Of a stretch of DNA of 64,000 bases, positions 14,228-14,795 are shown piece after piece. How positions within the stretch are numbered: position 1 is the stretch's first letter; each line of letters begins with the position of its first letter. Both the position numbers and the translations under genes were made by a program. Below the pieces are notes generated by a model. The model made no database searches, was not told the origin of the DNA, and worked only from the letters and a program-made list of their open reading frames with translations. Origin of the DNA: Rhodocollybia butyracea (lineage: Eukaryota; Basidiomycota; Agaricomycetes; Agaricales; Omphalotaceae); assembly GCA_015501585.1 (NCBI GenBank), contig JADNRY010000046.1, positions 1 to 64,000 on the forward strand, read 5' to 3'.

Positions 14228-14790
14228 CTAGTCTATAGACTCGCTCTGCTTCATTTCCATCTTCTTTTTCGCCTTTTTTCGGCGCCGACGTTCCCGCTCA
14301 CGTTGCTTGGCCCTTTTCAGCTCATCCTTGGAAAGACCAGGATTTTCGAGTGCGTCGAGCTGCGGTCACACAATGTTAGCAGATACCTCAACGATACGAC
14401 AGACAGTACAAGCCTTCGCAACCAACAGTCGGCGCGCTAACATCCGGTTTGTAGAGAGCGACCTTGTTTCTTGGCAAGAAACTCGGAAGCCTGTAGGTTT
14501 ATGAAGTAACTGTACATTGTTCTCGGTCTTGTTTACTGATTGTCCACCCTATGTTAACATGAGGCTTTGGTGACATTGTGAACACTCATTGGAAAGCCTA
14601 CAGGTCCACTTCCGCGTACGAACGATTCCTCAATGTCTTCCTCACGCAATTCAGGGATCTTTCGTTGACTGGAAGCACGTTTTAAAGCTGAATAGTACAT
14701 GGGACGTTTTGGAAGAGGCTCCTCACGGACTAGAGCAGCGCTGAATGTAAGCGCAATTGCAGGATGTGCTGTTCCAGATATAAGGAACAT
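14228..14790 (-). CDS. Mitochondrial class I release-factor-like protein (MTRFR/Rso55 family)
   Basis: Proteins of this family carry the GGQ domain of peptide-chain release factors without codon-recognition domains and help rescue stalled mitochondrial ribosomes. The minus strand gives EEDIEESFVRGSGP, then an intron at 14549-14601, then GGQSVNKTENNVQLLHKPTG and ETRSLYTNRMLARRLL. The GGQ tripeptide follows immediately after the splice. The last exon is a Lys/Arg-rich tail (RAKQRERRRRKKAKKK), as in the family. Exons 14790-14602, 14548-14414 and 14359-14228 sum to 456 nt (151 aa). The second intron (14360-14413) needs a GC donor but has a clear TGCTAAC branch site and exact frame. The proposed start, MFLISGTAHP, lies one base after the stop of MZM1. 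It lacks basic residues, so import may instead rely on FSAALVREE-like sequence or on a fusion with MZM1 (see findings). Confidence 0.8.
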
Positions 14791-14795
14791 CTTAC
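14741..14795 (-). promoter_or_regulatory. Possible 55-nt intron whose removal would fuse Mzm1 and the release-factor protein in frame
   Basis: The segment begins GTAAGA, ends TTCAG and has a CTTAC branch-like site shortly before the acceptor. It contains the TAA stop of MZM1 and the ATG of the next gene. If removed, the codon CA|C joins the two frames without a stop and predicts a 262-aa fusion. If kept, two separate proteins are encoded. Confidence 0.45.

Follow-up and report, generated by a model that had tools for sequence, protein, structure and literature searches.

A locus on the minus strand of the first 64,000 nucleotides of Rhodocollybia butyracea contig JADNRY010000046.1 (positions 1 to 64,000; the window) may form one transcription unit in which the splicing of a junction intron selects between MZM1 alone and an MZM1-rescue-factor fusion that uses the MZM1 import signal. 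We favor this reading tentatively and give it close to an even chance. The anatomy of the locus, the identity of its spliced product with the GenBank fusion, the one-piece models in the best 120 of 430 relatives, and the single assembly match of each half were established directly, and stand-alone ORFs of both MZM1 and the rescue factor were catalogued in other species.

Locus anatomy and gene models

With all introns removed, the locus encoded a fusion of 249 aa (Table 1), in which every residue was identical to the GenBank protein P0001 of R. butyracea. The public GenBank model for this gene is already the fusion. The earlier note had given the fused product as 262 aa; this length was wrong, as the 48-nt MZM1 intron had been missed and the GC donor had been used in the last intron (the fusion is 246 aa if the last intron takes the GC donor). 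Not one of the best 120 of 430 relatives contained the residues that the 48-nt intron would encode. In the mRNA, the MZM1 stop was at position 336 in frame 0 and the next ATG at 340, and the rescue-factor frame was +1 relative to the MZM1 frame.

Table 1. Features of the MZM1/rescue-factor locus in the window
Feature	Position	Strand	Basis or remark
MZM1 (LYRM7-like) coding exons, common to both forms	15228-15126, 15077-14922, 14871-14796	-	Translated product identical to the N-terminal part of P0001; aligns with proteins named MZM1
MZM1 start ATG	15228	-	
MZM1 in-frame intron, 48 nt (GTGCGT...CAAAG)	15125-15078	-	Overlooked in the earlier note
MZM1 intron, 50 nt (GTAAGC...TTTAG)	14921-14872	-	
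Junction intron, 55 nt (GTAAGA...CTTAC...TTCAG)	14795-14741	-	Spliced out in the GenBank fusion model
TAA closing MZM1 (112 aa) when the junction intron is retained	14794-14792	-	
Single G between TAA and ATG	14791	-	
ATG opening the separate rescue-factor ORF, one base past TAA	14790-14788	-	
CGCTGCTCTAGTCCGTGA: R-C-S-S-P-stop in the MZM1 frame, (H)A-A-L-V-R-E in the fusion frame	14740-14723	-	Reading by hand
Rescue-factor (RF-1/GGQ) exons	14740-14602, 14548-14405 (or -14414), 14359-14228	-	
Rescue-factor intron ahead of the GGQ codons, 53 nt (GTAGGC...CATAG)	14601-14549	-	
Last rescue-factor intron, ending at 14360	14404-14360 (GenBank model, GTCTGT donor)	-	Alternative GC donor at 14413
Rescue-factor ORF end	14228	-	

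The GenBank donor of the last intron, GTCTGT, is weak (LLVAKACTLDAL), and the models of relatives differ from each other precisely at this intron. At this place LLTAKLDAL or LLVAKLDAL stands in the models from Lentinula and Collybiopsis; this fits AAG|GC, that is, a GC-AG intron. Judged from these translations, the GC donor appears to agree with the relatives better than the GTCTGT donor.

Each half was found once in the 95.6-Mb assembly, and no additional copy or allele turned up there. Other RF-1 matches in the assembly came from a second RF-1 gene with identical scores at two places (C293:4854-4946 and C1049:537810-537902), which possibly represent two haplotypes; the MZM1 locus, in contrast, was single. 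Another minus-strand ORF (14005-13589) began 223 bases past the rescue-factor stop, and its sole Pfam match was far below the cut-off (E 0.06).

Identity of the two halves

The first half carried L-Y-R at residues 18-20, with Y-R invariant across 19 aligned sequences, and it matched stand-alone named MZM1 entries with E values of 9e-10 to 4e-5. The window protein had no match to Pfam Complex1_LYR even at E 1, and 11 of the 19 aligned relatives matched at E <=1 (best 5e-9). These similarities support an MZM1/LYRM7-like LYR protein, for which the family function, Rieske stabilization in complex III assembly, is predicted here. No solved structure for this half was found by sequence search; the sole alignment-profile match, a designed protein, was weak (E 0.089) and was disregarded.

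The second half matched Pfam RF-1 (8.8e-24 for the 151-aa ORF), had GPGGQ in its translation, and had no codon-reading domain. Its closest solved relatives, at the top of 45, were C12orf65 proteins (7a5h_C, 4.7e-21; 2rsm_A, 4.8e-18). By these matches, the second half is a predicted GGQ rescue factor of the C12orf65/Rso55 type; yeast Rso55 is described as Pth3, a homolog of C12orf65 (PMC7940416).

The junction intron

The earlier note had described a TAA closing MZM1 with an ATG one base on (TAA-G-ATG) and a 55-nt intron overlapping both the stop and the start. Both were confirmed, the GTAAGA, CTTAC, and TTCAG signals were present, and translation confirmed that, once the intron is removed, the halves meet at CA|C and a single frame stays open across both ORFs. 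The stop is not independent of the intron because a phase-2 GTAAG donor always reads xxG TAA G; the in-frame TAA comes with the intron, and the sole additional element is the ATG behind it. Counting both strands, the 64-kb window contained 112 GTAAG, three of these being GTAAGATG.

The junction was subjected to 2,000 dinucleotide shuffles. A bridging intron with comparable signals (donor GT[AG][ATG]G, branch-like [CT]TNA[CT], and [CT]AG, 45-80 nt long, with the correct open frame) arose in 0.8% of the shuffles, and one allowing any GT...[CT]AG arose in 28.9%. The in-frame bridge is less expected by chance than the stop. TAA-G-ATG was dropped as a conserved element, as just 23 of the 48 environmental ORFs for the rescue factor that were intron-free had an ATG upstream (see below); nor did it hold up as an element that matters, since the phase-2 GTAAG makes the TAA itself. 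The proposal that one transcript gives separate or fused products by splicing survived in part: the two halves share one unit, and whether the intron stays or goes would decide between separate and fused reading, but a key role for TAA-G-ATG found no support.

Fused models in other mushrooms

A search with the fusion sequence yielded 430 proteins, and the best 120 were all one-piece models of MZM1 plus a C12orf65/Rso55-type factor, 225-322 aa in length, with GGQ and a loosely defined MZM1 sign in 120 of 120. From their species names, with Rickenella and Rhodocollybia looked up, we take these 120 relatives to be Agaricomycetes. Ranking by a fusion query favors fusions, since a fusion outscores a separate half. 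End-to-end alignment of 55 fusions displayed two conserved halves with a variable linker between them. With a GenBank model of this gene and the best 120 of 430 relatives all fused, the fusion was not an unrecorded arrangement.

As a counter-check, the rescue factor alone was used as the query with proteins of 66-210 aa admitted; the best 120 of 201 matches were considered, and 84 were classified. Among the matches listed, the separate Agaricomycete GenBank models were P0164, P0177, and P0190, while P0137, P0138, P0154, and P0240 included MZM1 parts. A search with MZM1 alone added one separate Agaricomycete GenBank model, P0121, making four stand-alone GenBank models in all among the matches listed. 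Fused RNA looks scarce, which counts against our preferred reading: environmental sources (jgi, lgn, and ena) were absent from all 120 fusion clusters listed and contributed to 78 of the 84 classified rescue-factor rows, but the fusion figure refers to the best 120 of 430 and the 66-210 aa limit excludes whole fusions, so only partial fusions could turn up in the rescue-factor search.

The DNA of relatives was also sought in contig collections. Alignment of MZM1 gave no locus in the genome or viral contigs; the release-factor core gave 24 loci in genome contigs, all bacterial or from uncultured bacteria and therefore set aside, and none in viral contigs.

Stand-alone rescue-factor ORFs

A true dicistron is a live rival, though we consider it rather unlikely: the mature mRNA would keep the stop, ribosomes would restart one base on at ATG 14790, and the fusion models would be bridges made by gene finders. 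Gene finders favor bridging, which counts against reading the fusion models as real, and the TAA-G-ATG arrangement itself suits a restart. The dicistron also draws on 48 of the 78 environmental rescue-factor rows, whose ORFs had no insert at either of the two other intron sites, the state expected of spliced RNA; "intron-free" here refers to these two sites, and some species may have no such introns. The longest contig was <=1,150 nt in 34 of these ORFs, and the MZM1 C-terminal motif was found in 0 of 48 compared to 112 of the 120 listed fusions. P0162 and P0203 were intron-free yet had a longest contig of >3.7 kb, and some of the 48 may therefore not be RNA; P0200 and P0210 were possibly not Agaricomycete.

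The starts of the 48 ORFs, for which the gene caller may have chosen late positions, point both ways: 23 had an ATG upstream of the conserved segment, as a dicistron would need, whereas the other 25 did not (five with GTG or TTG there and 20 starting at or inside the segment). Seven of ten N-termini examined from upstream ATGs had <=1 K/R in 28 residues, the exceptions being P0147, P0142, and P0157 with 3-5, and such N-termini would mostly be poor targeting signals. In the window, the first 28 residues of MZM1 contained 4 K/R and 0 D/E and those of the ORF from 14790 contained 2 and 2, with averages of 4.0 and 1.0 over the 120 listed fusions. The hydrophobic moment, a crude measure, was 0.27 for the ORF from 14790 and 0.55 for MZM1. 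No mitochondrial targeting-like N-terminus of its own was found for the ORF from 14790. A later in-frame ATG (MYYSALK) was present in the window, and 37 of the 120 listed fusions had Met at that place.

Seven ATGs lay between the MZM1 start and 14790, which argues against leaky scanning. Polycistronic RNAs are known from Agaricomycetes and likewise carry tandem same-strand ORFs in mushroom-forming fungi; as described in PMC4503453, however, these ORFs lie a mean of 364 nt apart with stops in all frames between them, whereas here the distance is 1 nt and the bridging intron leaves one open frame. Reinitiation appears weakened by the untargeted-looking N-terminus, the seven earlier ATGs, and the 23 of 48 upstream ATGs, and it leaves the near-universal in-frame bridge unexplained.

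Stand-alone MZM1 and its tail

The search with MZM1 alone yielded 13 proteins, of which five were Agaricomycete-like (one named and four environmental). Four of these five ended in CCSA, CCSS, CCST, or CCSAS, and all four Mucoromycota proteins ended in CCGGH, CCGGNH, or CCSGH; the three Tremellomycetes proteins had a single C at the tail, and one yeast protein had none. The C-terminal Cys-Cys motif was common to P0127, P0129, P0130, and P0132 and to P0121 and P0123-P0125 (Mucoromycota and Agaricomycete-like). Because the stand-alone ORFs share this tail with early-diverging fungi, MZM1 on its own is probably also produced. A point against our preferred reading is that the R. butyracea MZM1 with the intron retained ends in PPATQ and has no Cys-Cys tail.

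The tail on stand-alone MZM1 ORFs and the existence of unfused environmental ORFs both count against a plain fusion gene, in which the intron would be removed constitutively, its stop would be ordinary, and kept-intron RNA would be noise or a way to lower output. The GenBank model and the single fused annotation in the best 120 of 430 relatives agree with such a gene, as does the report from Schizophyllum commune that alternative splicing there most often takes the form of intron retention (PMC5034255). On balance, we regard a plain fusion as unlikely.

A possible tail in two frames

TGC TGC TCx shifted by one base reads GCT GCT Cxx, that is, Ala-Ala. Of 78 [AV]A occurrences in the fused linkers, 58 were followed by a residue with a possible C-initial codon (L/P/Q/R/H); within the MZM1 part, the figure was 83 of 262 (p 2e-11, which is overstated because the sequences are related). 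Linkers compatible with Cys-Cys...stop in the other frame numbered 50 of 110, compared to 12-18 of 110 in ten residue shuffles; the other 10 of the 120 proteins were left out because the pattern could not delimit their linker. Built from protein letters alone, these comparisons would suggest that the same bases serve both frames.

Individual proteins were analyzed by hand. In Marasmius tenuissimus, P0121 ends MZM1 in CCSAS-stop and the P0045 annotation has PVAPPAEV there, as two frames would give; 3 of 1,728 codings of CCSAS-stop yield VAPPA. As splice forms of one sequence, however, the codons of P0121 and P0045 ahead of the shared bases disagree. Back-translation of the genomic-looking ORFs P0181 and P0183 indicated that intron removal can give KCCSA-stop or RTCCST-stop, and that the alternative reading stays open into the rescue factor. 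In the window, CGCTGCTCTAGTCCGTGA is a possible remnant of the Cys-Cys tail. KCCS lay within the linker of two fused models, P0043 (Pleurotus eryngii) and P0064 (Hohenbuehelia grisea); the Cys-Cys tail and the rescue factor may thus share a frame in this group.

Programmed +1 frameshifting at the MZM1 end, which would move ribosomes into the rescue-factor frame without splicing, fits the rescue-factor frame being open upstream in P0141 and P0166 (GTG present, no ATG) and being +1 in the window as well, but by hand the frame relation seems to differ in P0171 and P0181, and we consider it highly improbable.

Proposed mechanism

In our preferred reading of a splice choice, retention of the junction intron would end translation at the TAA and give MZM1 alone; its removal would make the stop and start vanish and give MZM1, a short linker, and the GGQ rescue factor. 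Because the MZM1 N-terminus leads, the fused rescue factor would require no targeting signal of its own. The fusion could function joined or be cut after import like Rsm22-Cox11. We argue that the fusion is used because the in-frame bridge is near-universal, and that MZM1 alone is used because of the Cys-Cys tail and the environmental ORFs. Both forms would be produced in R. butyracea, splicing would determine their ratio, and the fusion would be the chief source of the rescue factor. The choice in R. butyracea would lie between keeping and removing the intron; elsewhere, alternative splice sites may contribute.

A wider reading, possible in our view but held with more doubt than belief, is that Agaricomycetes generally have a single gene for MZM1 and a C12orf65-type factor in which the splicing of one intron sets the frame, so that the bases of an old Cys-Cys tail and stop become the border Ala-Ala in the fusion; the splice ratio would then set the balance between a factor for complex III assembly and ribosome rescue, both under one import signal.

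Relation to known systems

The fungal SKI7/HBS1 gene gives two proteins via alternative 3' splice sites, with the forms demonstrated by RT-PCR (PMC3597508). As described there, it resembles the present case in that one fungal gene provides two functional proteins by a long-kept splice choice involving a ribosome-rescue protein, a choice that here is inferred. The SKI7/HBS1 forms differ by an internal segment, whereas here a short protein would alternate with its fusion to a second whole protein. Rsm22-Cox11 of Schizosaccharomyces pombe is a tandem protein for which cleavage after import was demonstrated (PMC12375894, PMC4381221) and likewise combines a respiratory-complex factor and a mitoribosome factor in one mitochondrial precursor; in the accounts given in these sources, it is a constitutive fusion in which neither a stop/start nor a splice choice marks the border.

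The LYRM4-C12orf65 fusion predicted in five insects (Table 2 of PMC4381221) joins an LYR protein to the same kind of rescue factor. According to that table, the partner is LYRM4 and not LYRM7/MZM1, the lineage is another, and the entries are predicted only; this pairing would have arisen independently of the mushroom pairing. In a 2024 survey, about 7% of LYR proteins carried additional domains (PMC11293456). In the mainly open literature, we found no description of MZM1/LYRM7 and C12orf65 as a dicistron or fusion in mushrooms, and the tables of PMC11293456 may contain this fusion.

Significance

Should the RNA retain the stop in every case, a large number of fusion models in public databases would be wrong. 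If the splice choice is real, many entries named only "RF-1 domain-containing protein" or "mitochondrial zinc maintenance protein 1" would each be half of a two-product gene, and fungi would have another long-kept rescue protein made by splice choice, beside SKI7/HBS1. If the Agaricomycete-wide reading is true, the insect LYRM4-C12orf65 pairing would suggest a general link between LYR proteins and rescue factors. A splice choice kept across the mushroom-forming fungi would couple respiratory-complex assembly to mitoribosome rescue.
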